A stretch of 64,000 bases of DNA from Lunularia cruciata (lineage: Eukaryota > Streptophyta > Marchantiopsida > Lunulariales > Lunulariaceae), in assembly GCA_948567375.1 (NCBI GenBank), contig OX419759.1, positions 3,821,303 to 3,885,302 of the forward strand, written 5' to 3'. The notes beneath the pieces are model-generated. The model was not told where the DNA came from and made no database searches. It was given only the letters and a program-made list of their open reading frames with translations. Positions 31,414 to 55,204 of the stretch are shown piece by piece. Position 1 is the first letter of the stretch; every line of letters begins with the position of its first letter. Position numbers and translations under genes: made by a program.

Positions 31414-31517
31414 TATTGTGCATATATACATTGCTATAAAACATACATCACTATCAACATCATACACTATAGAAGCACAACTCACACATAAGTCATACAT
31501 AAACTCTAAAGTGCCAC
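31414..31517 (-). repeat. Extra copy of the gypsy C 3' internal segment outside its LTR
   Basis: These 104 bp nearly repeat 31969-32076 (shared words ACATACATCACTNTCAACAT, CATACACTATAGAAGCACAA, CATAAACTCTAAAGTGCCAC). They lie between the partial 3' LTR and the TACC target duplication, where the end of the LTR should be. Confidence 0.8.
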
Positions 31518-31968
31518 AATAATCAGATCATTTACAACTCAAATCAATCAAACTCAGATCAATACTTGATCTGATCTTCAACAACTTGTGAACAATTGGG
31601 CATTGTTTACATTCAAGCCACACCGACCCTAGCTAAGAGACTCCAAGTGATGCTCACCAGCTTTTTGTCCACTCTAGCCAGGAACTTGAAGGCTCAACAT
31701 CAGAGAAGTGAGTTCTCTAGAGTTGCACTTCCAGGGTATACCCTTGATTTTGACCTAGGTCTCATCCCAATGGTCCCACTGGTGGCACACTTGACGGTGG
31801 AGATGGTGCAAGTGACGGTGGGTCCCGCCATGAAGTCAGTACCCTAAACCTAAAATCTGACCATTGGAAAGTAGTTTATGAGTAATTGCCCAAGTGCTTC
31901 TAACAACTATCACTAGAACTCTAGTGTCCGAGCAATCTAGATACAACACTACAAATGGTGTGATAGTT
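31518..31968 (-). repeat. Gypsy C 3' LTR, partial
   Basis: Matches 60759-61200 throughout (CAGATCATTTACAACT, TCAATACTTGATCTGATC, CTAAGAGACTCCA, AAATGGTGTGA). The homology stops at TAATCAG, where the right-hand copy continues for several hundred more bases to its primer site. The distal half of this LTR is therefore missing and replaced by the 31414-31517 segment. Confidence 0.8.
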
Positions 31969-33820: not shown

Positions 33821-33963
33821 CCTCATCAGTCTCACCATGCCAATGTGCTTTGGTCTGATCCTAATGGCTGGGACATGGGTTTCTACTCAACCCATCTACA
33901 TTCCAGGTTCAACACTCCAGGTCTGTGAACAACCGTGAAATCATACTCTTGTAAAATCAAAGT

Positions 33964-35060
33964 CTATCGTGCAAGCTTCCTTGAAAGCTTATCAAACTCC
34001 ATCAACCAGTTCAATGGCTGATGATCAGTGCTGAGAGTGAAGAGGTCACCAATTAGATAACATTGGAAATGTGCTACTACCCAAACTGCTGCCAAACACT
34101 CTCCCTCATATGAACTATACTTTGCCTCTGCTGAATTGTTGGAGCAACTAGCATAGGCCACCACAAACTCCTTCCCCTCATGATCATGCTGGGTGATCAC
34201 CACTCCAAACCCTAACATACTCCAATCAGTATGAACCTGAAACGGTCGTCGTCTGATTGGTCTCCTCAAAATAGGAACAGATGTCAACCTCTCCTTGAGC
34301 TCTACAAAAACTCTCTCCTGCTCATCTCCCAAACACCACTCTTGTGTAAGCTTGGTCAGCTTTGTCAAGGCCTTGGCAATGGCACTAAATCCTCTAACAT
34401 AGCGGCAATAGAAGTTTGCCAACCCAAGAGATGCTCGCACTCTACTCATATCCATAGGCCAAGGAATACGTGCAATAGCCTCCACCTTGGTTTGCTGAAC
34501 ACCAAGTCCTCCAGGGTAGATAGTGTGACCCAAATACTCAACCTGCTTGTGGAAAAATCTACACTTCCCAGGATGTAATTTGAGGCCATGAGATCTCAAC
34601 CTCTCAAACACCTCCAACAACTCTCTCTCTCTCATGCTCCTCCACAGTAGTGTTATAGATCAAAATGTCATCAATATAGCACCAAGCAAAATCCAATCTA
34701 GCTAGGATCCTATCCATGACCCTTTGGAACTCAGTAAGAGCATTCTTTAACCCAAATGATAAGAACCTCCACTGATATAGCACATCCTTGCCATGAGGAT
34801 CAATAGCCTAAAATGTTGTCTTGGACTTATTCTCCTCCTTGATCGGCAATTAATGATATCCTGCTCAAAGATCCAAAGTACTAAAGACCTTTGCATGCCA
34901 AATTGCATCAAAAATCTCCTCCGGTGTAGGCATGGCATACCAATCATCCCTGGTCTATCGGTTGATAGGATGCTAATTTCTACACATCCGCCTATATGTG
35001 TAGTTGCCATGCATATCCTTCTTGGTTGGCATCACTGTCGATGATGCATACTTTCCATGT
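33964..35060 (-). pseudogene. Gypsy C reverse transcriptase and RNase H
   Basis: RT begins after the methyltransferase linker with MPTKKD-like sequence and NRQTRDDWYAMPTPEE-like sequence spread over two frames (about 35060-34900), then catalytic CYIDDIL (YIDD at about 34667-34678). A 223-codon open frame (34635-33964) follows: LRSHGLKLHPGKCRFFHKQV, VEYLGHTIYPGGLGVQQ, LGLANFYCRYVRGFS, then RNase H with FQVHTDWSMLGFGVVI, YSSYEGECLAAVWVVAHFQC and STDHQPLNWLMEFDKL. The best preserved block in the element apart from parts of the methyltransferase. Confidence 0.9.
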
Positions 35061-35485
35061 GAAATCTCTACCAAACCAACCTCAAAAAGGTCACTACTCC
35101 GGCTTTGAATCAATATCCTCTCCATATCAGTATATCGATAAGGACGTCAGAAAATTGGTGTATTGCTAGTCAGCTCAATCCATATACCAAGTCCCTTTTG
35201 AGCACTCAAATCCTTTATACTGAAGGTGAAACAACTTGTGTGGCTCCTCAAGAACCTCCAAACCCCCCGTTTTTCCTCGCTAGTAAGCTTGGGTTCAAGA
35301 TCTGGCTCCCAAGTATCCTTTATAATCGTAGTAGGAGTGGAAGACGTACTAATTGGATGCTACACTAGGCCCTTGGGAGCAATAATGTCATGCTCCCAAC
35401 CACTAGAGGTCTCAACCTCTGTGTGAAAAACTCCCTCCACTCTGGCTACAAGCTCCACAGTCCTCTAGCTGCATCCCAAGTGGAT

Positions 35486-36220
35486 TGTAATACTCCGAGG
35501 ACAAGAGAAGAGAGAAAACACAAATTGCACACTCAACATTCGATGCCCCAAAGGAGCATCTTCTCTTTATTATATAGACAAAGAGGATCTCCTCCAAGGA
35601 AGCTCCACCATAGGATTAGGGACACAGATAGGTGACATGTCAGCAAGCTCCACCCTTGGATTACTTACTTGGATGGGTGACCTGTCTGGTCTAGCTCCTA
35701 TCTGGTTGGTCAAACAAGCTTTGACCGGAGGGAATCTTTTAGGGAATCTTCTTGTAGGAATCTCAGAATCACATGAGTAAGGTACCATTGGAAAGCTCTC
35801 GACGAGACAAAGTAGGGGGGAGGGAAGACCAACCTCTCCTTATTGAGGGGGAACTTGCACATTTTCGAGGCCTAATTCATCCTATTAGGCCTCTAAAATT
35901 GCCTTCAAAGATTTCAAGCATATTTTGGTTCCTACGCTATTAGTAGAAGTCCCCTTTTGGTGAACCTCTTTCTGATCTGTTTAGTCCATCATGTGTAACA
36001 TCCTTCCAGATGTTACCAAACCAATTCTCACCTTTAAATCATATGTCTAGCTATTGGTTCTAAGGTTCTCAAGTCTATTTTGGTTTTTGCCCTATTAGTA
36101 GAAGTACTCTTTTGGTGATACTTCTATCTGATCTATTTTGACCATCATGTATAACATTATTCTAGAAGTTACCAAACCAATTTTCACATCTAGATCATAT
36201 GGCTAACCCTTGGTATTACA
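35486..36220 (-). repeat. Gypsy D 3' LTR
   Basis: 735 bp, plus-strand ends TGTAATACTCCG...TTGGTATTACA. Aligns end to end with 41350-42085 with scattered substitutions, most visible around 35810-35870. A minus-strand TATA-like CTATATAATAAAGAG lies near 35562-35576. Confidence 0.93.
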
Positions 36221-36240
36221 GACCTCCCTCCTTTTAAGAC
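36221..36240 (-). other. Gypsy D polypurine tract
   Basis: On the minus strand TTAAAAGGAGGGAGGTC sits directly before the 3' LTR, as expected for plus-strand priming. Confidence 0.85.
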
Positions 36241-37511
36241 GCACCGTCCTCGTTGCGCAATTGTTGCTCAAATGCTTGTACCAACACCAGTGCATGTGCC
36301 AAATTGGCAGCGGGTTCCTAGGTTGCTTCATAGAGGGGGTAACCTTTCCATTTTACTAGACATTCAACCCGCGGATGGCAAGTACCACGCATGCATTTTT
36401 GGAGAATCCGCTCCACTTCATATTCCTCTATGCCATCAATGAATGTCGGACAAGGTCAAATGTCCTGTGTGGAAGGACCTTGGCCTGATCGGGGAGCATA
36501 TCTGCGTAGTAGGGAGACATGGAACATTGGATGGATCTTCATATGTGGTGGTAGCTCAAGGTGATAGGCCACAGCGCCGATGCGACGAAGAATCAAGAAA
36601 GGCCCAATAAAACAAGGTATGAGCTTACGAGATCCAACTAATGTGAGGTTGGTTGTCGATAGCCACACTTGATCCCCAACATTGAACTCCATGTGCCGAC
36701 GGTGTGCATCAGCATACTGCTTTTGTCGATTTTGTGCAATCTGTAACATGTGCTTGGCGCTCTCCACACCTTGTTGGATTCTAGAAACAAATGTGTTGAT
36801 TGCATCAACCTTAGTAGTCACTGGACGGATCTTCATTAAGCTAGAAGGTGTGAAGGGATGCTCACCATACATGAGGAAGAATGGAGTGACCTGGGTGGAG
36901 GCATTCACTGAATTGTTGTAAGCAAATTCCACCAACGGTAGTAGGGTGTCCCACCTCTCTTGCTCTTCTAAGGTGAAGCCGCGTAACATGTCTTCAATCG
37001 TGCGATTAGCCCGCTCTGTTTGGCCATCTGTTTGTGGGTGGTAAGCTGTAGACATGGCCAACTTGGTTTTGAAGAAACCAAAGAGTGTTTGCCAAAACAA
37101 ACTGGTGAATTGGGTGCCTCTATCGGTGATGAGTACTCTAGACAAGCCATGATGAGCAAAGACTGCATCTAAGTATAGTTGAGCTAGTTGTGGAGTGGTC
37201 ACCTCCTTGGTGGTAGGGCGTACATGAATCATTTTGCTGAGCCGGTCCACAAAGACCATAATGGAGTCAAACCCTGAGGTGGTCTTGGATAATTCACAGA
37301 CAAGATCCATACTCACTTGTTCCCAACGTTGGGTAGGAGTGGAGAGAGGTTGAAGGAGCCATGCATGAGGTTGATTAGAAGCTTTGTTCTGTTGACAAAG
37401 TAGGCAGCTATGCACATAGTCCATCATGTCGTTGCTCATCTTGGGCCAATAGTAATGGCGCTTGACTGCATCCAAGGTCTTGTCTACTCCGACATGAGCT
37501 GCAATGGCCAA
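36225..37511 (-). pseudogene. Gypsy D integrase with C-terminal chromodomain
   Basis: The 351-codon frame 37511-36456 contains the zinc finger region (AIAAHVGVDKTLDAVKRHYY, CLLCQQNKA), the catalytic core (QVSMDLVCEL, MVFVDRLSKM, LITDRGTQFTSLFWQ, AYHPQTDGQTERANRTIED) and the C-terminal GPFLILRRIGAVAYHLELP. After a stop near 36456 the same reading continues with a chromodomain (EEYEVERILQKC, CLVKWKGYPLYEAT, about 36435-36320). There the conserved Trp codon is TAG. Chromodomains in this position direct integration into heterochromatin in characterised chromoviruses. Confidence 0.92.
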
Positions 37512-37779
37512 ATCATGACATTCCGCTAGAATGGTGGTGCGTAAGTCCAGGACATTTGGGATCCATAATCTGCCATCCCAAAAGGTGAGTCCTTGGGTGC
37601 TGGTGACACCTTTGGACGATTGCGCTTCTAAAATCTATGGATCAGTTTTTGTAGCAGCTAGAATCTCTTGCCAGAATTCAGGGTTAATCTTAACCTTTGC
37701 CACCAAGTTGTTGGCCATTGGCATATGGGTGAATGCATCTGCCAGTTGTTTCTTACCTTCCACGTAGGTGATTGTCCTG

Positions 37780-39133
37780 TTGAAGCATTGTCACCACTTT
37801 GCCCACCAAATTTGGCGACGAGATAGATCCTTCTACGTCTTGAGATAGACTAGAGGTTTGTGGTCTGTCCTACTACAAATGCCTTCTCGCCCAGGTAGTG
37901 CTTCCAATGCTTGGTTGCTAGAACGATGGCCAGCTCTTCCCGTTCTGTGGTATGGTAGTTGTGCTCTGCCGGTAACAACTTTTGAGAGAAATATGCAATT
38001 GGATGCCATCCGTCATGCCACTCTTGTTGTAGGACTGCTCCTATTGCTACGCCTGATGCATCTATAGCCAACTTGATTGGACGTTTTGGGTCATATCACT
38101 TCAAGATTGGTGCATGTAGCAAGGCGGCCTTCAATTTTTGAAAGGGCAACTCTTGTGTGGTTCCCCATGTCCACTTCTTCCCCTTGCCAAGTAGTGCCGT
38201 TAAAGGCTATGCAACCTTGGAGAAGGTCTTGACAAATCTACGATAGAATCCCGTCAACCCCAAGAAGCTCTTAAGTTGAGTCTGATCTTCTAGGGCACTC
38301 CATTTTTGAATGACCTCTATTTTATCTGTCAATACTTGAATGCCCTCTGCACTTACTCTATGCCCTAAGTAGTCTACTTCAGACTTGCCAAACTCACACT
38401 TTGAGATTTTGGCGTACAACTGATTTTGTCTTAGAATCTGGAGGACCTCTCATAGATGTTGTTTGTGTTCTGTCATTGTACTACTATATACTAAGATATC
38501 ATCCAAGAAGACAATAACAGACTTATCCAAGTAAGGACAAAATATGTCATTCATTAGGCTCATGAAAGTGACAGGCGCATTGGTGAGGCCAAAAGGCATC
38601 ACAAGATACTCAAAGTGGCCATACTTGGTTCAAAAGGCAGTTTTGTACACATCCTCCTCTGCAATTTGGATTTGATTATAACCGCTTTGCAAGTCCAGTT
38701 TGGTGAAGTATCTCGCTCCATGGAGTTGATCAAATAGGTCATCCATGCGAGGTAAGGGGTATTTGTTCTTCAATGTTTGCTGATTGAGACCCCGATAGTC
38801 AACGCACATGCGCATTGTACCATCCTTCTTCTTCACAAACAAGACATGGGCCCCATATGGTGATACGCTAGGTTGGATGAACCCTTTCTGTAGCATCTCC
38901 TCAATTTGAGTCTTACACTCCTCCAACTCATGAGGTGATAGGCGATATGGGGCCTTACAAGGAGGTGTCTTCCCCGGGAGTCTCTCTATTTTGTGATCTA
39001 CTCGCCTTTTAGGTGGTAATCCTGAGGGTAGATCATCGGGAAAGACATCTTGAAACTCATCTACCACATCCTTCAATTTCTCAGGAATTTTTCCAGCAAG
39101 TTGTGCACTTTGGACTTCTCTTATTAGACCCAT
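37780..39133 (-). pseudogene. Gypsy D reverse transcriptase and RNase H
   Basis: RT starts in the frame 39133-38630 ([60 protein letters not shown]), passes a stop, then continues with FLDDILVYS (about 38515-38490), [20 protein letters not shown] (38419 downward) and [16 protein letters not shown]. RNase H is at 38071-37850 (LAIDASGVAIGAVLQQEWHD, YHTTEREELAIVLATKHWKH). Several single-base stops. Confidence 0.92.
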
Positions 39134-39226
39134 AAAACAACTATTGATCTTACAGACAATTGTTGTCCCTACGACATATAGAGGCAGTTTCTGCCTGTGT
39201 GATTTTTCTTTAATCCCAATGATTGA

Positions 39227-39562
39227 CTATTGGTGGGTTCTCACTACTTTCTTCCTCCAATCCACCATTGGGTTGTACTGCTCCATCCATGGCATGCCTA
39301 AAATTGCATCATAACGGGCTAACTGTATCACTCGCCACTCAATTGCTTCCTGATATTCTCCTACAGAGAGGGTTACCCGTCTAGGTAATGATTCAATCCT
39401 CTCTGTTTGCCCATTTGGTAACTCTACTTCTTCACTTCCATCTCTCTCTAGATCCATTCCCAATCTTATTGCAACAGAGCAAGACAAGAAATTCTCTGTT
39501 GCTCCCGGATCTATTAATACTCTCACTTGATTACCTTCTAGGATTCCATTTACGACAATCAA
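39227..39562 (-). pseudogene. Gypsy D aspartic protease
   Basis: VRVLIDPGATENFLSCSVAI carries the DPGAT form of the retropepsin active site that is common in plant chromoviruses, and YDAILGMPWMEQYNPMVDW is the downstream motif. Open for 111 codons. Confidence 0.88.
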
Positions 39563-39699
39563 GTGTGAGGTTGCCTTTCGGGATCTTTGCGCATTATTCT
39601 TCTTCCTTCCCTCACTTCTCTGCTTCTTTATTGAGCCAGTAAGGCCGCAAGGTACATTTACTGGCGATCTTTGTTTTCCAAAGTGGTTTCTACCTCCTC

Positions 39700-40740
39700 C
39701 TCTTCAATGTACCTCTCCATGTTGTTCAAAGATTGTCTGTACAAAGGCCGAGGGCCTCTAGGGAAACGAGTGCAACAATTGGTAGATATGTGCCCAATAC
39801 GGCCACAATTGTAACAACGGTGTTGTTCTCCTCGAGTCCCTTCTCCTCGTGGGACTCCATCTCTTCGTTCTTCTACCCGCCCCCGCTCTCCTTGAAGCGG
39901 CCGTGCTCCTTGATCCTGGAATCAAAGGCTGCCCAATTCCATCGGTACTAGTCCACCCATGTGTGGCATTTCTGCCCGATAATGTTGAGGTGGAACTACT
40001 CCTTCACCTCCACCTAATGCTCCTACTATTCTTTGCGCACAAGCAATGGCTTCAAATACCGTGCGAGGGTTTTGCACCATGACTTCTTGGCAAATCTGCT
40101 CTTTCAACCCTCGTTTGAAATTGTCAAGAGCCTCTACTGGACTCATGTTGGTAATTGCGACTTGTAGATCCAGAAATGCCTCCACATACTCATGTACGCT
40201 ATTCTTCTGTCTCAATCCACATAGTCGGGTTTGAGCCATCGGCACAGAATCCACCGATTGGAAATTCTTTAGCAGTCCTTCTTGCATCGCTGTCCATGTG
40301 ACCTCCCTTCTCTCGGCCAGCATGGATCGTTCCCAAGCATCATACCATGTGAGTGCTTTATCGGTCAAGTACCCACATGCAAACACGCTTGCAGCATGCT
40401 CTGTGATCTCTGTTGAGAACAATCAAAAATATCAATTCATTCTTGAGATCCAATTTTCCACTACTCCCATCATATGCTGCCCCTTGTAAGGCTTGATGTT
40501 GCAGGTCTTCTTCATCCGGAGTAGCAATGTGGCTTCATCGTTGATAGGGTTTGTAGGCACAGGTGCCTCTCCAAGTACTTCAGTCGCAAGTACTGGGTTT
40601 TGAGACGGCTCTTCTCCTTGCATAGCTTGATCGTTCTTGAGGATCTGCACTTGACTTTGTAATGTCTCCATGGTCATCTTAATCTCTCGAAATTCATTCA
40701 GCATCCCTTGCATTCCTTGCACCAGCTCTTGCAACTACGG
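39700..40740 (-). pseudogene. Gypsy D gag with CCHC zinc knuckle
   Basis: Two frames, 40734-40432 (a coiled-coil-like start, FREIKMTMETLQSQVQILKN) and 40422-39922 (AASVFACGYLTDKALTWYDA, EVTWTAMQEGLLKNFQ, KNSVHEYVEAFLDLQVAI). The knuckle CYNCGRIGHISTNC (C-x2-C-x4-H-x4-C, about 39770-39815) is intact. Confidence 0.88.
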
Positions 40741-41331
40741 ATCCATGGTTCCTGCAACACCCAATTGCTAACATCTACTTCAACACAGAGTCAATATAAT
40801 CACTCTGGAAGGTGCAAAAATTATCGGAACTACCATTGGGATCTCAGAAGCTATCACTCGTTGAAAATACTCCTCACCAAAATTCCTAACCACAAAATCT
40901 CTAAACATCACTTTTGGCCTCACTACATAACGGATTTCTACTTGAGTGTTGAAAGGGAGAGGATTTGGGACATTCATATCCATATTATCATAATAGAATA
41001 TAGATTGTCAAATCCCACTCTCTATCATATATCACCACAGGTAGAATCACCGGATTTGGTGAGTTCATCACTCTGTCCATGAATTCCGCATCAAAGTGAT
41101 AAACTAGCAATACCCTCATCTACTCACGCTAGATGTACATAACCTTGATGTGGAATGGGTTTGAAAATGGAAAGCTAGGTGCGGGAAATTGTCTCCTCGG
41201 CGCATCCATCCCATCCGCTCTCTAAAGCCCTTCCTAAGTCTAGCGATTACTCTATATTCTCCACCTCAAATTACTTAGTTTCAGTAGTTTGTGCTATTCC
41301 AAGAGGGGTGATCCACTCTCTTGGACTAGAA

Positions 41332-41348
41332 CACTCGCTCTGATACCA
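41332..41348 (-). other. Gypsy D primer-binding site
   Basis: Minus-strand TGGTATCAGAGCGAGTG follows the 5' LTR, a full initiator-Met tRNA match. Confidence 0.9.
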
Positions 41349-41349
41349 T

Positions 41350-42085
41350 TGTAATACTCCAAGGACAAGAGAAGAGAGAAAACACAGATTGCACACTCAA
41401 CCTTTGATGCCCCAAGGGAGCACCTTCTCTTTATTATATAGACAAAGAGGATCTCCTCCAAGGAAGCTCCACCATAGGATTAGGGACACAGATAGGTGAC
41501 ATGTCAGCAAGCTCCACCCTTGGATTACTTACTTGGATGGGTGACCTGTCTGGTCTAGCTCCTATCTGGTTGGTCAAACAAGCTTTGACCGGAGGGAATC
41601 TTTTAGGGAATCTTCCTGTAGGAATCTCAAAATCACATGAGTAAGGTACCATTGGAAAGCTCTCGACGAGACAAAGCAGGGGGAAAGAAGGCTAGCCTTT
41701 CCTCCGTTGGGGGGGAATCTGCACATTTTCAAGGCCTAATTCATCCATTTAGGCCTCTAAAATTGCCTTCAAAGATTTCAAGCATATTTTGGTTCCTACG
41801 CTATTAGTAGAAGTCCACTTTTGGTGATACCTCTTTCTGATCTGTTTAGTCCATCATGTGTAACATCCTTCCAGATGTTACCAAACCAATTCTCACCTTT
41901 AAATCATATGTCTAGCTATAGGTTCTAAGGTTCTCAAGTTTATTTCAATTTCTGCCCTATTTGTAGAAGTACTCTTTTGGTGATACTTCTATCTGATCTA
42001 TTTTGACCATCATGTATAACATTATTCTAGAAGTTACCAAACCAATTTTCACATCTAGATCATATGGCTAACCCTTGGTATTACA
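41350..42085 (-). repeat. Gypsy D 5' LTR
   Basis: 736 bp partner of 35486-36220 with the same TGTAATAC...GTATTACA ends. Confidence 0.93.
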
Positions 42086-42366
42086 TGGACCAAGGGTGTA
42101 ATCCAAGCAGCCCACGCTCACCTAGATGGACTCCAAGTAGACCACTCTCCCTAGTAGCTACTGGTTGTGTCCCAAGAATACCATATCCACTCGGTCCATT
42201 ACCAATTTTCACATCTAGATCATATGGCTAACCCTTGGTATTACATGGACCAAGCGTGTAATCCAAGCAGCCCACGCTCACCTAGATGGACTCCAAGTAG
42301 ACCACTCTCCCTAGTAGCTACTGGTTGTGTCCCAAGAATACCATATCCACTCGGTCCATTACACCC
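42036..42366. repeat. 163-bp tandem duplication across the gypsy D / gypsy C junction
   Basis: The last 45-50 bp of the D LTR (ACCAATTTTCACATCTAGAT onward) plus about 115 bp of gypsy C flank are repeated directly with almost no change (AAGGGTG versus AAGCGTG near the start of the flank). A second LTR end therefore appears at about 42248. The duplication must post-date the D insertion. Confidence 0.9.
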
Positions 42367-42389: not shown

Positions 42390-43500
42390 TAGGCACAAGG
42401 CTCACAAGTGTTCGAGTGGTGATGCCTATCAAGCACATCCTACGCTACTCTACCAACCCAAGGCTCATAATCCTGGTCAAATAGTTCAGGTCCATAGCCT
42501 GACCTAACACTTGATGCCTAGATGCCTTTGACACTACTGGAACAACGGTAATATTGGTGCAAAAACCCATTGCCCGCTCTCTCTCATCAACGTTAGGCTC
42601 CACCAACTACTATAACTATGAGTCCCAAACAAGTCCAGGTCTTCCCTCTCAAAAAGCATGAGAGCCTGGGAAACTCATGAGTGTGGAAAATGCAGCTCTA
42701 AACTATCCAACTAGGTTCACAACAACCATAGGTGACCTATCAGCCACTACCACTATTTGAGACTGACTCCCAATATCCAAGATATCATCAACAAGGATGT
42801 GGTCAAGTCGTTGAATCTCATCATAAGCACATTGTAAAACCTCTCTGGGTAAGAGGTTTGTCCACCAAAGACAAAGATGATGAGCCCATGATCCCACTCT
42901 GGTTGCATCTAACAATACAACAAGTCCCATCCAAGAATGGACTTGATGTGTACTTGCCACCACTCAAGTGCAAGAATCACACATCAAAGGAACGTTCTCC
43001 AAAAGGTTAGTTGGAAAAATGGACTAATGAACCTGGAGATGTCGTAGTATCCGTAACATCTCCCAAAACACACCAAAATGAGGATCTTGAAGACCCAAAC
43101 CTCGGCCCGCACGTGTATGTCCCTGACATGGCTATCCAGAAATCACCAAGTGAATAGGCCCATGTCTCTCTAGATCATGTACCCCCAGTAAAGAAATGTC
43201 TACTGGTAGGACCTTCTGGTAACCTCTGATTGCTAACATCAATAATAACTCTGGATACCGATAGGCCAAGTGTGCCATATGATGTAGAGAGACTCGCCTA
43301 GCAATTTCATCTCTTGCTGCATACAAGTACCTATGTACTTGTATACCCGCTTGTAATACCACAACTAGTTTGGTGCTAATCCCACCAAACAACTCCAGTA
43401 GACATATCCCCTCTACTGGATATTGCCAAGCAATGAGTGCGATATCCAAAGGTGTCAAAGTAATAGACTCTAGAGGCTCATCCTTACACTCATCTGCCAA
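42390..43500 (-). pseudogene. C5 cytosine DNA methyltransferase domain inside gypsy C
   Basis: The reaction of the family is transfer of methyl from S-adenosylmethionine to C5 of cytosine. Visible on the minus strand: motif I GICLLELFGGIST (about 43410-43372), AGIQVHRYLYAARDEIARRV (about 43350-43291), RHGPIHLVISG then a TAG (43132-43134) and the catalytic-loop motif IV PCQGHTRAGRG (Cys codon 43126-43128), motif VI ENVPL (42985-42999), motif VIII-like AHHLCLWWTNLLPREVL (about 42870-42820), ERERAMGF (about 42590-42565) and a C-terminal LGQAMDLNY (42484-42510). About 310-340 residues, close to a complete catalytic domain. The start is open for 122 codons (43500-43135) and the middle for 86 codons (42963-42703). 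The TAG replaces the Trp of GWPCQG, and further stops and frameshifts follow. It lies between protease and RT, so it is part of the polyprotein. Confidence 0.87.
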
Positions 43501-43779: not shown

Positions 43780-44160
43780 TAGGAAACATACCCATCCCTC
43801 CCCAGACTGCCAACCTGGTCTATAGGAGATTGTCTCCTCCCAATAGTCAATACCATAGGGTATAACACTGCTCCCCCAACTAGCACATCAAATGACTCAA
43901 CTATTGTTATATAAGCCTAAGCTCTCACCACCGAGCTATCAGTCGGATGACCAGGCTGAACCTAGACAACAAGCTCCCCATGTGCGATGTACTGTGTTGA
44001 ACTACCACCTAGAGATGTTTGGATCTGAAATGGATACCGCTCTACATTGGTCTTCCGTAACTCCCGATCAACTACAATAGTCTTCCCCAACATAAGAGGT
44101 TGTGCACCAGAGTCTAACAAGACTCTCTATGGTGTATAGACCTTCCCTGAAGGTCCCACC
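43780..44160 (-). pseudogene. Gypsy C aspartic protease region
   Basis: VLLDSGAQPLMLGKTIVV (DSG at 44106-44114) is a retropepsin active site, followed by VERYPFQIQTSLGG. Downstream frames are broken. It is directly upstream of the methyltransferase. Confidence 0.75.
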
Positions 44161-44164
44161 AAAC

Positions 44165-44909
44165 AGAAAATCCCCCTCTAGTTATCCAATGGAACAACAC
44201 CAGGTGTGAACCGCACTCTCTCAAAGGTCGGTCTAGTTGGCAACTCCTCCATTCTAGCCGTTATTGCCTACCATAAACCACTGGTTGCTGAACGGATCCC
44301 ATGCTCCTCAACCAAGTTAGTTCAACTATCAACCACCTCTGCTCTAGTAGTAGGAACCGCATCATCCCTATTCTCACAAAGCGTGGCAACCAACCAAAAT
44401 ATTGGGGTTGGGTCAACTCCCAATGTAAACATGTCACTGGTTGAAAACAAAGGGCACCACATAATCAGCTGAGCCGCCCCCAACATTGTGCTAGACTTAG
44501 TCTGTGTAGTAGCAAGTAGTTGACTAGCAAGTAGTCCATCATGCACTCCATCACCACCTATCACACTTGCACTTGGACATCTAGGAGCAATGGATGTCGT
44601 TTGCAATACCTCAGATAGCATGAAAGACTGGAGAATTCTGACCTGTCTCCCAACCTCTCCTCTTTGTGGGTCCAACTCCATTGATGCTCCTCTAGGCTCT
44701 AGAGCACGTACTGGCACTCCTAGTCATTGCTGCAAATGCATCCACCTATGCTGCTCTGCACATGAAGTCCAAAGTATCTCTGTCACTCACATATGAGGTG
44801 GAAGTATCAGCACCCGAATCTGATCTCCTTTGAGCAATAGCCATACTAGCCAATCTCTACTCCAATTGCTCAAACCGAGTTGCCATAGTTGTATCAAAAG
44901 TAAGGGTAG
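44165..44909 (-). pseudogene. Gypsy C gag-protease linker region
   Basis: The reading near 44909-44770 (MATRFEQLEQRLASMAIAQR) continues from the gag side of the solo LTR; the frame 44717-44322 has no domain I can name. The opposite-strand frames here are shadows. Confidence 0.5.
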
Positions 44910-45564: not shown

Positions 45565-47089
45565 AGTAGGTACTACACCCCTACTAGGTGTAGATCCTCT
45601 ACCACCACCTCTACCACCTCTTCCTCGATGAATTGGAGCTCTTCTACTACATACCATAGCAGCCTTATCACTCCATAACTTTGGGTGTAGGTCAAAACAC
45701 CAATCACTAGTGTGACCAAATCTGTGGTAATGCTCACACTGCCTCCGTGTTGGCTGTGATGCATTAGAGGTATTAGGTCCTTTGCATTGAGTACACTCTT
45801 TCCTATGGTGAGGTCCACCACAAGTCCAACAAGCAACACCACTACTCACTGGCTATTGTTGACCCAAAAATGAAGGTAAAGGTCTAACTACAATAGGCCT
45901 TCTACTTGCTCCATAGGACTTGTGCGGTCCACCTTGTCCTCAAAAACCAATTGGGCATGGTGCACTCTATTGTACTCTAGAAGAACTCACAGCCATGGAT
46001 GAGGTCTCCCCACCAAATCCAGATGTCACAACTCTCTCCTCCACCATGTTGAGCTCAATATGCTCAGCTAAACCAAAGACCACTACCAAAGTAGGCAAAG
46101 TAGCATGTGACAACATAGCATCACAAACTCTATGTTGCAACTCCTTGTCCAGTATCACATACCAAAACTAGATTTCTTGGACCTCAATAACTCCCTGAGT
46201 GAAACTAATCTGCCATCTCATGCGGGTATAAGCCTCACGTAAGCTCTCTCCAGCCTTCCGCTAGAACTCCTACAAGCTTCTCAACTTGTCAGTTCACACT
46301 CCCTAGTAGTTCTATCTCAAATATTGGAAGAACTCCACCATGGGGTTAAACCCTAGTACCACACCACCTCTTGCAATGGTACATCCACTCATGGTAACAC
46401 TAACTCCAGCTAGTGCACATCCACTAGCTCCACCAACACTACTTAATTTGGAACTCATAGGTACAGCCAATCTACTCTTGGCCACCAAAATTGAAGTGAT
46501 AGAGATATAATTTGGAGACCAATACTATCTCCATAACTCAATCTCCTCCAAATGAGCTCTCTTGAACTCATGGTAGTCATCCATCAATGGACCTTCCAAA
46601 TGTTGAAACAACCCTTTCCATGCCAGAAAGGGTATAAACAACATCAAGTTCCACATCTATTGCAGATCATACCAACTATCAAACTCTTGGATGAAGTCAT
46701 CCAACTCAATGGTACCCATTGTACCAGAGTAACGCCTAGGGCCCTTGGAGGCCCCATAAATCTCAACCAAGTACCACAACAACGGTGTAGACACAACAAG
46801 TGCAATTTGAACTCCAACTCTTGTGTTGAACTCCAACTTAGAGTGAATCTCCTCCCTCACTGGGACCTAAGAATAAAGGTTGATATCGAGCACTACTCCA
46901 GGTAAACCCACTACATACCGTAGGGCTATCTCCTCTAGAATCCCCAAGAACTCCGTCATGACAAAGTAATTGTAACTGCAACCGCAACCGCAAACTACAA
47001 CAGCAAGTACTCCACCAAGTGCCAACACTAACCAAGCACCACCAAGTGCAAACACTAACTAAACACCACCAAGTGCCAACACCAACCGA
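45565..47089 (-). pseudogene. Gypsy C gag with two cysteine/histidine knuckles
   Basis: Reads from the 27-bp repeats at 47089 through EFLGILEEIALRYVVGLPGV, REEIHSKLEFNTRVGVQIAL and MGTIELDDFIQEFDSWYDLQ (46720-46660), AGESLREAYTRMRWQ (about 46260), ELQHRVCDAMLSHATLPTL (46140s), to the knuckles CWTCGGPHHRKEC (C-x2-C-x4-H-x4-C, about 45828-45790) and CEHYHRFGHTSDWC (about 45744-45700). A Gly/Arg-rich tail (RGRGGRGGGRGSTPSRG) ends at the solo LTR. Multiple stops. Confidence 0.82.
46985..47089 (-). repeat. 27-bp coding minisatellite in gypsy C gag, left part
   Basis: CACCACCAAGTGCCAACACN repeats at 27-bp steps, encoding LVLALGGAR-like nonamers on the minus strand. The array continues beyond gypsy E at 59858-59960, so E landed inside it. 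Confidence 0.85.
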
Positions 47090-48129
47090 TGTCGTGGGGA
47101 ACATTTGGTCTTGAGAGTGCACTGAGCAAATGGCTACTTGTGCTTAGTTTTCCTTATTGTCTTTCTTTTGGATTTTCCCGTAGAGTGACATTCCTTCCCT
47201 ACTCCTGGATTGTCGGGAATTTGTCTCTATATGAACTTCTTGTTTCAGTTTCCCTTAGGTTGGCTCTCCCTGAAGGTTTTGTTTTATCCTTGACTTTTGC
47301 AAAACTAATCTTTTCATGCGAGTCTGGTGTTATGGTTTCTACCTCTGCTTGGTCTCATATTCTATTTTCAAGTCAAGTTCAAGCTATGGTTTGAGATCTG
47401 GCAGTTCATAGACCTAGTTTAGGTGGCCCTTTGATAAAATAAAATAAAATAAATAAATGACAACTAAGTGATCTAACTGAACATAAACTCGGGCACCCAG
47501 ATCATTTAATTATGCTATTCACTTGGACCGGACTAAGAGCTCCTAGAATGGAGTTTTCCTCAACTCTAGTCACAATTCATAACACAAATCCGCTTCCAAG
47601 ACTCATTATTCACAAGAATTTCAACAACAAAGTTCACAAGGTTGGATAAGTCAAATAGTTCTAGTCAAGGCAATGCCTGCGCTAAGGTTGCAACTGCTCA
47701 TCAACTCAGCTTGGCACTTCACATATACTCTGTCCGACAGCAGACAAGGCAACTCACCCTCCGAACCTCTTCATTCTCCTATGCCTTGTTTTGCAAATCA
47801 GATTCACTCCATTCAGACAGGCCAACCAACTTCAAATATTTTCTTGCCCTTGCTCCAGATGAACTGATCCACTTCAAAATTCTCCTCCTCTTCTTCTTGA
47901 CTTCAAGAGATATCCTTTGGCAACTTGTGCAGCAAATCCCCTTCAGACCTGCAAAACTTCTCTATTGTCTAAATCTCATGTCCTCTTGCTTCCCTGCAAA
48001 ATTTTTTTCTCTTCAACTTCTACCCAAACCCCTTCAGACTTGCGAAAATTTCTCTTCTGTCCAAGCACTTCTTCTCCTGCACATTGTTCATTCCTTTGAG
48101 AGAAAACTCTTTTTCTCCCCTGCACTTTC

Positions 48130-49460
48130 AAGCATTCCCTACAACATTTCAAAAATCTTTCAGCCCTAAGACTCTCTTGCAAACTTCAAAAATTCACCCA
48201 CTGGTCCCATCTTAGACCTCAGGCATCTCAAAAATCCATCCCCTGGTCCAAGCACAGCTTACATCATTTCAAAAATCTTTCAACCCTTAACACTCTCCTG
48301 CAAACTTCAAAAATTCACCCACTAGTCCTATCTCAGACCTCAGGTATCTCGAAAATCCTTCTCCTGGTCCAAGCACAGCCTATAGCATTTCAAAAATCTT
48401 TCAGCCCTAAGACTCTCCTGCAACTTCAAAAATGCACCCACTGGTCCAATCTCAGACCTCAAGCATCTCAAAAATCCTTCCCTTGGTCCAAGCACAGCCT
48501 ACAGCATTTTGAAAATCTTTCAGCCCTCAACACTCTCCTGCAACTTCAAAAATTCACTCACTAGTCCTATCTTAGACCTCAGGCATCTTGAAAATCCTTC
48601 CCCTGGTCCAAGCACAGCTTATAGCATTTCAAAAATCTTTCAGCCCTAAGAGTCTCCTGCAACTTTGAAAATTCACCCACTGGTCCAATCTCAGACCTCA
48701 GGCATCTCAAAAATCCTTCCCCTGGTCCAAGCACAGCCTACAACATTTCAAAAATCTTTTAGCCCTCAACACTCTCCTGCAACTTCAAAAATTCACCATT
48801 GGTCCGATCTCAGACCTCACGCATCTCAAAAATCCTTCCCCTGGTCCAATCACAACCTATAGCATTTTGAAAATCTTTCAGCCCTCAACACTCTCCTGCA
48901 ACTTCAAAAATTCACCCATTGGTCCTATCTCAGACCTCAGGCATCTCAAAAATCCTTCCCTTGGTCCAAGCACAGCCTAGAGCATTTCAAAAATCTTTCA
49001 GCCCTCAACACTCTCTTGCAAACTATGAAAATTCACCCACTGGTCCTATCTCAGACCTCAAGCATCTCAAAAATCCATCCCTTGGTCCAAGCCCAGCCTA
49101 CAGCATTTCAAAAAATCTTTCAGCCCTCAACACTCTCCTACAAACTTTGAAATTTCACCCACTGGTCCTATGTTAGACCTCAGGCATCTCGAAAATCCTT
49201 CCCCTAGTCCAAGCACAGCCTACAGCATTTCAAAAATCATTCAGCCCTAAGACTCTCCTGCAACTTTGAAAATTCCCCCACTGGTCCTATCTCAGACCTC
49301 AGGCATCTCAAAAATCCTTCCCCTGGTCCAAGCACATCCTACAACATTTCAAAAATCTTTCAGCCCTAAGACTCTCTTGCAATTTCAAAAATTCACCCAC
49401 TGGTCCTATCTCTGACCTCAGGCATCTCGAAAATCCTTCCCTTAGTCCTGTCTCCACAGA
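48130..49460. repeat. 119-bp minisatellite in the gypsy E 3' LTR, about 11 units
   Basis: The unit includes AAAATTCACCCACTGGTCC, TATCTCAGACCTCAGGCATC, AAAATCCTTCCCCTGGTCCA, AGCACAGCCTACAGCATTTC and AAAATCTTTCAGCCCT. Successive units start about every 119-120 bp from near 48190 to 49389. Non-coding; 119 is not a multiple of three. Confidence 0.92.
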
Positions 49461-49549
49461 AGGCCTTTCTCTCCAAAGTTCTCCTCTCCTTCTATGTCTG
49501 TTCAGGCCCTTTTCTTCAAAAACCTCTTCCTACAGTCACCTCTCTCAAA

Positions 49550-49815
49550 GCCCTTTTGATTCCCTTTCCTTCCTATCCATGCTCTCAAAGCCCTACACAG
49601 CCAAGTATATCTCTTGAAAATCTTCTCTTGCAGCCAATTCACCAAAACCCCTTTTGATTCCCCTTTCCTTCTTGTCCATGCTCTCAAAGCCCTGCACAGC
49701 CAAGTATATCTCTCCAAAATCTTCTCCTGTAGCCAATTCACCAAAACCTCTTTTGATTCCCCTTTCCTTCCTGTCCATGCTCTCAAAGCCCCTGCCCAGC
49801 CAGGTGTATCCCTCG
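49550..49815. repeat. 98-bp minisatellite in the gypsy E 3' LTR, about 3 units
   Basis: TTTGATTCCCCTTTCCTTC, TGTCCATGCTCTCAAAGCCC and GCCAATTCACCAAAACC recur at about 98-bp steps. Confidence 0.85.
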
Positions 49816-50332
49816 AAAATCTCCTTCTGCAACCCTCTATATAGAACCCTTTCCCCCCAAAAATCTCCTCATGCAGCCCTTTGTCTAGAACCCTTTCCAC
49901 TCGAAAATCCTCTCTTTCCGAGCTGAGTTCCTTCACTCCTCTATCTTTTTCTTGCTGTTTTTCCCCCCAAACCTTTCATTGTCACAACTCCTCTAAAGCC
50001 TCCCAAGTATTTCCAACTCAAAGACTCCTTTTTGCTCCTCTTCTAAGGCAAATACTCCTTCATTCCAATAACTTAAAACATAACCTAAGCTAGTGTAACC
50101 CAACATTATTTCTTGGCTCAAGCCACATTAAAAGACTCCTTGAGCTAATAACACCATAACTTTTCTCGGCTGCACAATAATATAGGAAATATCTCCCGCA
50201 ACAAGGTAGCATAAAACTACACCTGAGACATATTGACATAAATCCATGTTCCTTACAACAACTAGAAGAGAAAAAGAAAGTTTATCACACCAAAAGCCTC
50301 AAGGGTACACATGGGCTATATTCCTGACTACA

Positions 50333-50350
50333 TTCACCCCCACCAATCTT
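50333..50350 (-). other. Gypsy E polypurine tract
   Basis: Minus-strand GATTGGTGGGGGTGAA abuts the 3' LTR. Confidence 0.75.
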
Positions 50351-50387
50351 GTGCAGCCACCGGTCTGCACCAGCAAGTCCATTGTGA

Positions 50388-51881
50388 TCAATATGAGCTT
50401 TCTTCATTGGCATCTTCGAAATCACCTCCAGAGCCAAAGTCATGATCTCTTTCCTCCTCGGTTTGTAATCGCCTCTTGAAAAGTTTAACCCTTTTCCTTG
50501 CATATGGCAGACGATGTTCAGTACCATTTAGCTCTTGCACACTATAGGTGGAATTCTTGTGAACTTTGGTAACAACAAATGGGCCATGCCAACGGCGGGC
50601 AAACTTCTTGAGGGTCGAATGATGTATGTCTAGGCTGTTATCAAAAATCACCACCCAGCCCCCTTCACTGATAGGCACTGGTCGCAGTCGGTGAGTCTTG
50701 TCAAAGTATACTTTGTTTCTCAGCCGCACTTCCTTCACCTTCTCGTGTGCCATTTGTATCCTTTGTGGTGTCAGATTAAAGTGCTTGATTTTGAGCATTA
50801 TCAATTCTTTTGTAGACACATTGTCCTCCCACTGAACAGTTCTCCAACTAATGATGTCCTCTTCCACAGGCATAATAGGTAAGTGCCCTGATACTAGTTC
50901 AGCAGACGGCATTCGAGTCATTGAGCTGCAAGTTAACCTATCAACCATAAGCGCTAAGGGCAGCAAATCAGGCCATTTGTAGGTCTCACCTTGGCAAGCC
51001 TTCACCAAAGCATTCACTATTGGCGGATGACCTTGCTCATTCTTACCGTTGGCTTCCGGATTGTAGGCAGTAGTCAGGTTCAGTTTGATGTTGAACTTAG
51101 CAAAGAAGTCAGTTGCTTCCCTTGCATCCAACTCACCTTGATCTGCCCTCATCCGATAGAAACATCCGTGCTTGGCAACGATATCCTCTAAGACAAATTG
51201 ACACGCATGTTGGGTATCCATAGACGACAATGCTCTTCCTTCCACATAATTAGACAGGTCTTCCCTAGCTAGTACTAGATATTTAGCTCCTTGAACTCCT
51301 AAAGGCATATGAACCAAGTCCAAAACCCACTGAAAATGGAGATTTAGCGGATAAGTAGGTTTCAAGCCATCTCTGTGCCTTACCTTGGAGTAGATTTGAC
51401 AGATTTGACAAGTTTCCACATACCATCGTACCTTTGTGTAAATACCTGGCCACCAGTACAAACCCCGGATGCGCTTGTATGTACCCTGAACCCCATGATG
51501 TTCGGCAGCATCCACGTCGTACAACTCCCATAGCACTCTTTGCTTCATCTCCTCATCTCCCAACACTCTTAGTGGAACTCCAGAGCTGCCCTTGGGCCTT
51601 CGCCAGAGATACCCGTCCTTCAACAAGAATTTTTCCGATCTCCTTCTAATCTTCTCAAACTCTTCCCTGGTCCATTCAGAGTTCTTCTCTAGAGAACTAA
51701 GATACTTCCCAACCACCAGAAGATCATCCTTGTACAGTTCTTCTCTAAAGGGTAAGTTCAATTCCAGCTCATGCACATCCACCATACAATCATTTTCAGC
51801 TCCTTCATAACATGCTCTAGACAACATATTAGCTACCGGATTGTCCTTCCCAGCTATATACCTTAGCTCTAGATTAAACAT
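50388..51881 (-). pseudogene. Gypsy E integrase, 497-codon open frame
   Basis: Starts in the RNase H tail (LELRYIAGKDNPVANMLSRA), then the zinc region (DAAEHHGVQGTYKRIRGLYW, CQICQIYSKVRHRDG), the core with LDLVHMPLGVQGAKYLVLAR (first Asp), RMRADQGELDAREATDFF (second Asp), LTTAYNPEANGKNEQGHPPI (Glu), and the C-terminal ARRWHGPFVVTKVHKNSTYS with an acidic end (DHDFGSGGDFEDANEESSY). No chromodomain is seen. The frame itself has no stop, so this part is well preserved, but it lacks an intact upstream pol. Confidence 0.9.
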
Positions 51882-51896
51882 CCAAATGAACGCTAT

Positions 51897-53309
51897 CTAG
51901 CGCAACATGGCAATGTCTGGAGTGTCACAGTTGGCAACCATTCCAAGCAGTGGCAAGCAATCTGTCTCTAGGATGACATAGGTCCCTATTAGGCAGTTTC
52001 TATCCTGTCTTAGTGCTATCTTGGCACCCCACAATTCCCATTTGATCTGAGGGTACCTCCGTTGCTGTTCCATGAAGATCCTTGCTCCAAACCTTGCTGC
52101 AAATCTGCTGCCGTTCTCGTTGTCTTGGCCCACAGCCCAACCAACAGCCTAGGGACTTGAGTCAACCATAACTATAATTGGTCGTCCACAGCGGTAGTCA
52201 AGCGGGTGGAGCACAGGCGGGTTCTACAGCGCTTTCTTCAGTTTTGCCATAGCAACCAAATGTTCCGGTCTCCAAACAAACCTGATCCTTTTCCTCAAAA
52301 GCTGGTAGAGCGGCTCTACAACATGACCAAAGTGCGGAATCCATATACAGTAGAAAATGCATGCCCCTAAGAACCTTCTTACCTCCTAAACTGAGGAACA
52401 GTCCTTGATCTTCCCTATTATGTCCACCTTTTCCGGATTTGGCTTCCTTCCATACAAGCCATACAAGTGTCCCACCACAAGGATTTCTCCAAGTCCAAAT
52501 GCTGACTTCTCTCCAGAGAGAGTCACCCCCGCTTCCATCAACCTTCTCAGTATCGCCTCTACATCTTGAATATGATCTATGACAAACCCCCTAATTCCTC
52601 CATCCACCAAAGTTTCATCTTTCTCGCTCTTTGTGCAACCCTTGACAGGTATATCATCCAAGAATGGACGGGTCTTCTCAGGGATAAAAGACTGCAAAAT
52701 TCAATTCATAGCGCTTTGCATATGCGCCACAGAGTTAGTAGCCCTCATTGGGAGAGTGCACATATGCATCAGCCCTAACGGTGTTCGCATCATAGTTATG
52801 TCCCGGCTCCCTTTAGCAAGCTGAAACTGATCATAACTTGAATACAAATCTCCTATAGAATAGATTGCCCTTCCTGCAAACTCCTCAGCAAACTCATCCA
52901 CAGCCGATCCAACACCAGAATTCCGGATTGTTACCTTATTTGGCGGTTGCATATCCTATATGAACCGCAACTTACCATTCTTCTTCCGAACAATGAACCA
53001 ACGATTTGAGTATGGCGCTTTTGATGGTTCTAAAATCTTTGCCTGAACTTTCTCCTTCAATAGTTCTGTCAGCTGGGGCAAAAGCGCCTTTGGCACTGGT
53101 ATTGGTCTCAGATCCCATGGTACATGCGGAACTTTGAAAATTATCATTGGTGTGATTTCCTGCGGGTTCACACACCCAATCTCCTTGATCTTGAAAGCAA
53201 AAGCCTTCCCACACTTCCCAATCATTTCCTTAAATGCACGGTGCTCAACTTCTGTGAGCAATCCATCCCCTCCGACCGTAAGCTCATCCAAGGTCTCTTT
53301 AGTAAACAA
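51897..53309 (-). pseudogene. Gypsy E reverse transcriptase and RNase H
   Basis: RT: PVPKALLPQLTELLKEKVQA, SNRWFIVRKKNGKLRFI (53309-52956), DLYSSYDQFQLAKGSRDITM and MRTPLGLMHMCTLPMRATNS (52952-52701), the catalytic FLDDIPVKG (about 52662-52636), RRLMEAGVTLSGEKSAFGLG and GHLYGLYGRKPNPEKV. RNase H fragments at about 52200-51897 are poorly conserved (QRRYPQIKWELWGAKIALRQ, YVILETDCLPLLGMV). The FLDDIPVKG variant and the DQFQL block mark a lineage distinct from gypsy A, C and D. Frames are interrupted near 52952 and 52697. Confidence 0.88.
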
Positions 53310-53327
53310 ATGACCAATGTGCTTTTC

Positions 53328-55147
53328 CTACCTCAGTCTCGGTTCCTCTTTAGTCCTACGTATCAAATCAGAAGCATCCAATGGCAATGGGACAGCAATA
53401 GGACAAACCTTTTTGTCCACTATTTTGTACTTAGTGTCACATCTCACTTCATGAACCAACCTTGAAAGTGTTTCATGAAGCTCCCTTCCTATTTCAATCA
53501 CGGGTTCTCCTTTCTCCATTACCCCGATCACCTTCTGGACTGCCCTACCTTCTCCCCAATCCTCCACCAGTCCAATGATAGTCTTGCTATCATCCATTTC
53601 CCTTGCTGTTTTCAGAACTCTCTCTTTCCCTTTCATTCTCTTCTGCAAAATTCTCGTGGTACTCCCTACATGTGCAAAGCAAACAGTTCCACCACTCTGG
53701 ATTCCCACATAGGTCCTATCAAAACAGTCTTCCTCACTGATCTCTTGCGGTGGAATGTAGCATAGGGCGCCTTGTCCCTCCACCTTCTCTGACAAGATGC
53801 CTAGTGGAAACCATACCTTCCAGTAGGCTTTTTTGGATCTCTTAACTCTCTCCTGTTCCTGTTGCTGCCCAGCAATACAATAGGGAATTGCACTATTCTG
53901 GCCCTATTCTGACTTTTAACCTTCAACACGTGAGTCCCATTGTTCAGAACTTTGCTCTCCATTCTAAACTGAGTAATGAAGGGCTGTCCTAGGATCACCG
54001 GGTAGGACAAGGTATCATGCACGAACACATTAATAGGCTCTACCACATTCCCTATCTTGATTCTGACATCTTGACAAGCTCCCCACAATGCATTTCTGGT
54101 TCTATTCACTGATTTTACCTTCCAATCGATGTCACGGTCCACCTTCCATTGCCCTTCATCGTAGACCGCCTTTGACACGAGATTGACCTCAGATCCTGAA
54201 TCAATCAACGCTCTCACCGGTGCTTTCACTCCTTGCATCTCAATCTTGCACTCGCTGCAACTTCTCGCCCAAAAGGAGTCTTGCACCTCCTCTGACAAGG
54301 GCACAAAAGACGTCTCATCCTCAAGTGCAGCATCATAGACATGTGCTTCTCGGGTCTCATCCTCTGGTTTTTCTTGTTCAAGCTCAAGCCCAAAAGTTCC
54401 CACCTCTCCTTCAGCCTCACTCCTGTCCTCGTACAGCAAGGATGTGTGCGGTCCTTCCTTGTAGAATTGTTTCTTCTTTGCCTTGACAAGGATAAGGTCC
54501 TGCACATCCTTCCTCAAGCTACCAAAGAACTCTTCGTTTGTGAAACCCCTCACCTCTTGCTTCCAGAACTTTTTGGCAATCTCTTGCGGATCCAATTCCA
54601 TTTCTATGTCCCGGCTCAACAGCCAACCCGGCCCCTTCCTAGGAGATCTCTCTCCCTGCTTTTGGTTTGCTGCCCCTTCTGTGTCCATTTGTGACTCTTC
54701 TCCAATGCCCAAATTCTGATCCTTGCTCTTTTGTGCATCGTTGAACTGCACCTCTTTCCTTCTAACCTGCCTCCTCTCCGGTTCCACTCGCTGTTGCTTT
54801 TCCCTTGGCTGCCCTTCACTATCTGCCCGTTGATCAGATTTTAGTTTCTCTTCCACCATAGCATCCCAAGTGGCACCAATTTCCGCAGTGATGGCAGTTA
54901 TTACCACCGGCACATCCCACCCTGATTTCCTCCCGACCTGCTCTGCTAGTCTCTTCTTCTCAACTTCTCCTAGGTCTGCACATTGCTTCACTTCACTCAT
55001 TGCACTATACACACTAGGCTCAAATGCAGCGACTGCCATACTTACTTCACGTTTGCCCATGTGTCTTTCCAGCAAAGCCTTCATCCTTCCCCTGTTACCG
55101 TTCAGCGGTATTGGCTCCCCAATATCATAGAAGGCTATCTTCTTCAT
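53328..55147 (-). pseudogene. Gypsy E protease and flanking polyprotein
   Basis: A 448-codon frame (55147-53801) has a charged, low-conservation N-terminal half (EKQQRVEPERRQVRRKEVQ) and a retropepsin with VRALIDSGSEVNLVS and SYPVILGQPFITQFRM. A second frame (53795-53328) carries the protease-RT linker. The two are separated by a short break. Confidence 0.82.
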
Positions 55148-55204
55148 CCCGGGTTCTCCAACAAACTTCGCCCACTATTTGCATACGGTTTCTGATAGCT
55201 CTTG

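Follow-up and report, generated by a model that had tools for sequence, protein, structure and literature searches.

How does a retrotransposon come to carry an enzyme of the very kind that hosts use for silencing? The same paradox has been met in dinoflagellates and in one charophyte alga (PMC5890265, text available in part), and it arises at a locus of Lunularia cruciata, which lies within a stretch of 64,000 nucleotides, here called the window. The original prediction for this locus placed a C5 cytosine methyltransferase domain inside a Ty3/gypsy polyprotein, between the protease and the reverse transcriptase (RT). The placement is borne out by a match to the Pfam family PF00145 and by the recurrence of the same order in many genomic copies. 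Judged by identity and anatomy at the sequence level, the window almost certainly contains one old, dead member of an abundant, split-repeat family of the Ty3/gypsy type in a land-plant genome.

The methyltransferase element in the window

The motifs LELFGG, PCQG, ENVPL, AHHLCLWW and LGQAMDLNY, predicted to follow one another at 42390-43500, do so in a single minus-strand register of the window translation. Between a point shortly ahead of LELFGG and one 21 residues beyond LGQAMDLNY, this register contains nine stop codons, of which eight precede LGQAMDLNY; the methyltransferase of the window copy is therefore a dead pseudogene. Searched with X at the stops, the translated stretch narrowly passes the PF00145 cut-off (E 8.3e-5; 22.6 bits against 22) with a match that covers one part of the domain only, and the two ORFs of the stretch, given alone to Pfam, yielded no match. 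The corresponding domain of another copy, L009, aligns to the window by tblastn across 319 of 320 aa at an identity of 81.8% (43404-42448, E 1.5e-164), which excludes a chance resemblance.

Mapping of L009 on the window, combined with the repeats within the window, delimits the whole methyltransferase element to 61198-31418, from A1 to the end of B2. GGTA flanks both outer ends, and the element is interrupted by two later gypsies and a 659-bp insert. Its parts and insertions are as follows:

60760-61198, minus strand: A1, the left split direct repeat, with GGTA outside; 86.7% identical to A2 at 31520-31963
47089-59857, minus strand: younger gypsy in the 5' part of the element, with long LTRs at 47089-50332 and 56266-59857 (pair about 91.5% identical)
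45868-46794, minus strand: gag region; 75.7% identical to L009 gag, 309 aa
45682-45831, minus strand: CCHC zinc knuckles with the motif CWTCGGPHHRKEC; 82% over 50 aa
44910-45567, no strand: stretch of about 659 bp not in L009, a gap between matches ending at 45568 and starting at 44909
43842-44189, minus strand: aspartic protease-like region (DSGA), motif-based; 81.9% identical to L009, 116 aa
42448-43404, minus strand: DNMT3-type C5 methyltransferase domain, broken by stops; from motifs, PF00145, the PDB match of the L009 domain and tblastn
35484-42085, minus strand: younger gypsy (gag-PR-RT-IN) between methyltransferase and UAG, with LTRs at 35484-36220 and 41348-42085 (95.4%)
35360-35362, minus strand: in-frame UAG dividing gag-PR-methyltransferase from pol, here TAG CATCCA; from the junction comparison across copies
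34366-35179, minus strand: reverse transcriptase of the element; segments 81.6% and 92.0% identical
33919-34308, minus strand: RNase H; 82.3% over 130 aa
32949-33593, minus strand: integrase (H2C2 + rve); 85.6% over 215 aa, with Pfam on the relative L013
32244-32386, minus strand: C-terminal PHD finger, frameshifted in the window copy; from L009 mapping, with PF00628 at E 7.4e-10 in L013
31968-32074, minus strand: B1 repeat; 94.4% identical to L009 B
31520-31963, minus strand: A2 repeat; 76.7% identical to L009 A and 86.7% to A1
31418-31520, minus strand: B2 repeat, the right end, followed by GGTA; 94.2% identical to B1

The DSG motif, taken from the start for the protease of the same element, indeed belongs to it (44189-43842). 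The RT originally assigned, that of the gypsy at 36-41 kb, does not: this gag-PR-RT-IN block has its own LTRs and a 5-bp target duplication (TGGAT/TGGAC at 35484-42085, read by eye) and hence is a nested, younger gypsy, while the RT that matches other copies lies at 35179-34366. The larger nested gypsy at 47089-59857 has CCGA at both flanks (read by eye).

Several further observations concern the window itself. The long LTRs of the larger nested gypsy (47089-50332 and 56266-59857) hold arrays of tandem repeats of about 120 bp, their ends, TGTCG...CGACA, are similar to those on the outer side of the A and B repeats, and the CCGA duplication fits the NCGN preference reported in the moss Phygy lineage (PMC6317226, text available in part). 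A 160-bp tandem duplication (99%) at 42041-42360 extends across the junction of the nested-gypsy LTR and the methyltransferase element. Fragments at 25921-30588 (minus strand) resemble a copia-type and another gypsy element, with a gypsy RT match at 27123-26692, and an assembly gap of 200 N is located at 16592-16791. The ORFs at 4113-6917 (plus strand) resemble exons of an ABCG half-transporter, an adjoining host gene; the ratio of observed to expected CpG is 0.77 at 3500-7500 versus 0.39 in the whole window.

Family size, gene order and split repeats

The genome searched comprises 565,766,749 bases in 74 contigs. It contains 35 matches to the dirigent family, 34 of them over the cut-off; this family is not known outside land plants. 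With PF00145, at least 123 matches were scored among 2,161 candidates of a first look, some of them in host genes. The best 123 of 13,390 candidates from a search with the methyltransferase protein, among them the query's own locus, all have at least 96% identity and cover at least 324 of 325 residues. The exact 15-base A2/B2 junction occurs 3,315 times in the genome and the exact 28-base UAG junction 671 times, against none for the reversed-pattern control of either; these numbers are not those of complete elements, since they may include partial or solo-like remnants and miss diverged copies.

The twenty copies compared more closely come from the PF00145 list. Their selection by methyltransferase score, and in most cases by the length of the open frames, tilts the sample towards intact copies. 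The less decayed copies have the order A1, gag, CCHC, protease motif, DNMT3, UAG, RT, RNase H, integrase, PHD finger and B1-A2-B2. The longest frames comprise 1428 aa (gag, CCHC, protease motif and methyltransferase) and 1037 aa (RT, RNase H, integrase and PHD). Four frames were submitted to Pfam, which recognizes RVT_1, RT_RNaseH, Integrase_H2C2, rve and PHD in ORF2 of L013, DNA_methylase in all three ORF1 frames and, weakly (E 0.07), Retrotrans_gag in one of these. The three ORF1 frames gave no protease family by Pfam, and the protease assignment thus rests on the DSGA motif. With gag weak and the protease called by this motif, the succession of gag, protease, RT, RNase H and integrase is that of Ty3/gypsy. 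The PHD finger resembles those of CHD4, KMT2D, PHF12, KMT2C and KDM5.

Across the coding part, through methyltransferase and pol, the 19 other copies align to L010 in unchanged order with 96.5-98.95% identity. Individual copies vary: the initial 1,489 bases are missing from L017, L026 has about 680 extra bases, and L012 has no open frame across the methyltransferase motifs. Viral contigs scanned with the methyltransferase and with the RT gave no confirmed relatives outside the genome.

The repeats are arranged as A1-internal-B1-A2-B2 with ends TG..CA, in place of full-length direct LTRs at both ends, and because of this arrangement the element is a gypsy by its genes, not by its repeat layout. 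Among the 14 sampled copies for which the DNA upstream was retrieved, 12 have A1, which completes the A-B-A-B pattern; L010 retains only a fragment of A1 and L016 has none. Identical 4-bp flanks lie outside A1 and B2 in ten of the 12 copies (by eye), the exceptions being L013 and L021 with mismatched flanks. The TG..CA ends and the 4-bp duplications, which include that of the window copy (GGTA), are the features of an integrase-type insertion. A1 and A2 are 94.9-99.8% identical in 11 of the 12 copies, 89.4% in L013 and 86.7% in the window copy. By hand count, the A2/B2 junction is found in 18 of the 20 copies, the G-run GGGGGGCG precedes B1 in 16, and the palindrome GACAGCTGTC lies at the B1/A2 junction in 13. 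We infer that a cDNA with LTRs of B-A type forms a two-LTR circle, which the integrase would open at the palindrome GACAGCTGTC to give A-int-B-A-B.

The ends of some copies are more complex. Positions 8342-9842 of L019 hold tandem copies of the B1-A2-B2 end region, and extra A-type repeats occur in L040, upstream of L025; the repeats of L019 and L025 look as though one element had inserted into another or the two had recombined. Upstream of L013 (L031), a second stretch of the element, about 91% identical, lies in direct orientation, and L013 is without matching target flanks.

Nature of the enzyme and its possible role

The L009 domain matches DNMT3A best in the PDB (E 7.4e-12), as well as DNMT3B (2.3e-8); outside DNMT3, the matches are M.HaeIII (6.5e-4), DRM2 (0.014), HhaI (0.02) and DNMT2 (0.044). 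By this one PDB search the element domain is closer to DNMT3 than to DNMT1, CMT, DRM, DNMT2 or bacterial enzymes. With canonical DNMT3 (animal DNMT3A/B, bryophyte DNMT3) it shares the motif order I-IV-VI-VIII-IX-X without the DRM rearrangement, yet it differs by its long branch and by having no PWWP or ADD domain by Pfam in the three ORF1 frames. A DNMT3 of a moss is named in PMC10952607 (text available in part).

By eye, the genome holds two DNMT3-type loci, one DRM-type locus and one CMT/MET-like exon. The DNMT3-type loci L001 (C7:31.99 Mb) and L004 (C1:51.67 Mb) are multi-exon, canonical host loci with 98 of 132 aligned residues identical, and a host DNMT3 exon matches DNMT3C/3A at 1.7e-16, which confirms one DNMT3. 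Together with the dirigent matches, these loci and exons point to a land plant as host, most likely a bryophyte in view of its DNMT3 genes. In pairwise comparisons of the element domain, 55 of 161 residues agree with DNMT3A (score 150), 37 of 120 agree with L001, a host DNMT3 (score 101), and 40 of 105 agree with the host DRM stretch (score 98). The domain therefore does not derive recently from the host genes identified. A tree of five short sequences (DNMT3A, two host DNMT3, host DRM and the element) places the element on a long branch without close kinship to the host DNMT3 genes; the node of DNMT3A and DRM has a support of 43, and the tree does not settle the affiliation.

The position of the enzyme within the polyprotein is defined by the stop between the two frames. 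These meet at a single in-frame UAG in all 23 copies compared (the 20 sampled plus L005, L007 and L008), and CARYYA follows it in 22; the older window copy has kept the UAG, followed by CATCCA instead of CARYYA. As the UAG stands between methyltransferase and RT, the enzyme belongs with Gag, ahead of the stop. In plant viruses, among them the tobamoviruses, UAG-CARYYA serves as the type I signal for readthrough (PMC5382211, text available in part), and recoding between gag and pol is common in LTR elements, by frameshift in the cases covered by PMC5009743 (likewise in part). From the conserved junction we infer that termination at the UAG of the element is leaky.

The explanation that we regard as the best overall, at just under an even chance of being right as a whole, combines these parts into one life cycle of a DNMT3 gypsy. 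If the UAG is leaky, the abundant product would be Gag-PR-methyltransferase, and a rarer one would add Pol. Together with Gag, the methyltransferase would enter the particle in the quantities of a structural component, and it might methylate the cytosines of the new cDNA, or of the circle formed from it, before integration. A new copy would then be born silent-looking and be tolerated by host surveillance. The PHD finger on the integrase would probably tie the complex to histone H3 tails and bias the landing site. The permuted order of the repeats would follow from a circular intermediate that is opened at GACAGCTGTC, the B/A palindrome. Two concrete components of this mechanism that lend themselves to testing are the UAG and the PHD finger.

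The original prediction also proposes that the element methylated DNA itself, whether to have its own copies tolerated or to limit competitors. Taken separately, self-methylation of the cDNA would be the most likely role of the enzyme, if somewhat doubtful, and the decay of the window copy offers a comparison. Relative to L009, the window copy has undergone transitions at 35% of CG, 27% of CHG and 7% of CHH cytosines, and with three other copies as reference the decay is similar, CG exceeding CHG and CHG exceeding CHH. The LTR pairs of the two nested gypsies give 31%, 21% and 5%, and 37%, 24% and 4%, for CG, CHG and CHH, respectively, a comparison that is weak either way, as LTR pairs are unpolarised and the sample without methyltransferase consists of two window gypsies, none of them young. 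Because these neighbouring gypsies share the order, the decay of the window copy is ordinary plant-type methylation damage and no special mark; CpG loss is thus unsupported as a footprint of self-methylation. The ratio of observed to expected CpG is 0.45-0.46 in six young copies versus 0.42 and 0.35 in the two nested gypsies.

Alternatively, the domain may be a passenger without enzymatic activity, or a module that binds nucleic acids and has been retained for a function like that of Gag; we consider this unlikely. Stops within the domain are common, occurring in 8 of the 20 sampled copies and, by hand count, in 45 of the best 123 of the 13,390 protein-search candidates, and the test for selection is compatible with such a passenger: the ratio of nonsynonymous to synonymous variants in the methyltransferase is 26:23 for shared variants and 70:41 for singletons, a difference in the direction of constraint that falls short of significance (p 0.29, or p 0.07 when CpG changes are left out) among twenty young copies that are too similar for this test (96.5-98.95% to L010). 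Among eleven segments with uncorrected p values, shared nonsynonymous variants are fewer in gag (p 0.001) and PR (p 0.003), and nine exceed 0.05, including RT (p 0.16), IN (p 0.80) and PHD (p 0.56) along with the methyltransferase. The motifs of the enzyme argue against a passenger: GWPCQG is intact in 19 of the 20 copies, LLENV and LGQAMDLN in all 20, AHRLRLWW in 19 and DERERAMGF in 18, and 78 of the same best 123 candidates have no stop in the domain. Motif I (LFGGISTG) is unaltered in 13 of the 20. The preservation of the catalytic motifs IV to X in 18 to 20 of the 20 copies would permit activity without proving it.

An active enzyme might also act in trans, methylating host or competitor DNA or perturbing silencing instead of modifying the element's own cDNA. 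Much of it would be made, given its place on the Gag side of the UAG, and the copy number is high, as reflected by the 3,315 A2/B2 and 671 UAG junctions. Yet the decay of neighbouring DNA resembles that expected from ordinary plant CG/CHG methylation, and the host has DNMT3-, DRM- and CMT/MET-like exons of its own; action in trans appears rather improbable. That a host gene fragment came to lie beside or inside a gypsy copy by chance is practically out of the question and, as a single host gene adjoining a gypsy, refuted, since many other gypsy copies carry the domain, the order recurs genome-wide and is collinear through methyltransferase and pol in 19 of the 20 copies aligned with the 20th, and the element domain agrees with the host DNMT3 exons of L001 at no more than 37 of 120 aligned residues. 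For the preferred reading of a packaged enzyme that methylates its own cDNA, the many young copies represent a tractable system for testing whether self-methylation aids the persistence of the element.

Known relatives and the land-plant setting

The category of retrotransposons with a methyltransferase was rightly attributed in the original prediction to charophytes and dinoflagellates. Elements with a C5 methyltransferase have been reported in dinoflagellates and Klebsormidium (de Mendoza et al. 2018, PMC5890265), and a paper from 2025 repeats the streptophyte and dinoflagellate cases, naming LTR Copia and DIRS elements (PMC12344493); both sources were available in part, and statements on the algal elements below refer to that text of PMC5890265.

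The closest known element is KnitGypsy-Dnmt3 of Klebsormidium nitens (PMC5890265). By description, not by tree, the Lunularia element is of the same type: both have the gypsy domain set, a DNMT3-type domain in the polyprotein, intronless copies and, according to the legends of Fig. 4c and Fig. 1e, DIRS-like A-coding-B-A-B repeats. The Lunularia element differs by its land-plant host, by hundreds of copies or more, by the in-frame UAG with CARYYA before the RT and by the PHD finger that ends pol. The main text of PMC5890265 mentions neither PHD nor Marchantia, and its sole passage on a "stop codon" concerns premature stops in Symbiodinium LINEs. What is new about it is the host, a land plant, together with its abundance, the UAG and the PHD finger. 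The KnitGypsy DNMT was without activity in yeast, a result that the authors call inconclusive (PMC5890265).

SymbioDIRS-Dnmt3 and SymbioLINE-Dnmt of Symbiodinium are likewise retrotransposons carrying a C5 methyltransferase, and SymbioDIRS shares both the A-coding-B-A-B layout and the DNMT3 type (PMC5890265). SymbioDIRS uses a tyrosine recombinase and SymbioLINE an endonuclease, whereas the Lunularia element encodes an integrase of the DDE type (rve) and is flanked by 4-bp target duplications. It therefore falls outside the DIRS order, which is characterized by a tyrosine recombinase and no target duplication.

Among the known plant LTR lineages (Neumann et al. 2019, PMC6317226, text available in part), gypsy polyproteins and 4- or 5-bp target duplications are shared features; split A-B-A-B repeats are not among the features noted there, and the main text of the survey mentions no methyltransferase, PHD, Marchantia or Klebsormidium. 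A land-plant transposon review from 2022, as far as available, contains no DNMT3, Klebsormidium or liverwort, and a literature search by title or abstract start, with most subscription journals outside its range, found no land-plant DNMT-gypsy element. Thousands of junctions in a land-plant genome contradict the printed wording of an absence from land plants; if the host is a bryophyte, the narrower printed statement on tracheophytes still stands.

More tentatively, and with appreciable doubt, we propose a lineage of integrase-bearing, split-repeat DNMT3 gypsies that would have persisted from the charophyte algae through to land plants, or passed between the two groups, and become one of several main invaders of the Lunularia genome. 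Its two-tier programme would keep the methyltransferase with Gag by a leaky UAG and place a PHD finger on the integrase, and the integrase would open a circle through which the element passes. If this proposal holds true, the element would carry a DNA-methylation writer and a likely histone-tail reader in separate products. The genome of Lunularia cruciata is reported to have been enlarged by Ty3/Gypsy bursts (PMC9985172, text available in part), and, as a guess, the DNMT3 gypsy family may be one of these; the main text of that paper mentions no methyltransferase, DNMT, PHD or methylation. The capture of a nucleic-acid-modifying domain has a parallel of another enzyme class in an orchid Ty3/gypsy element, which carries an m6A RNA demethylase domain (PMC9289625, text available in part).
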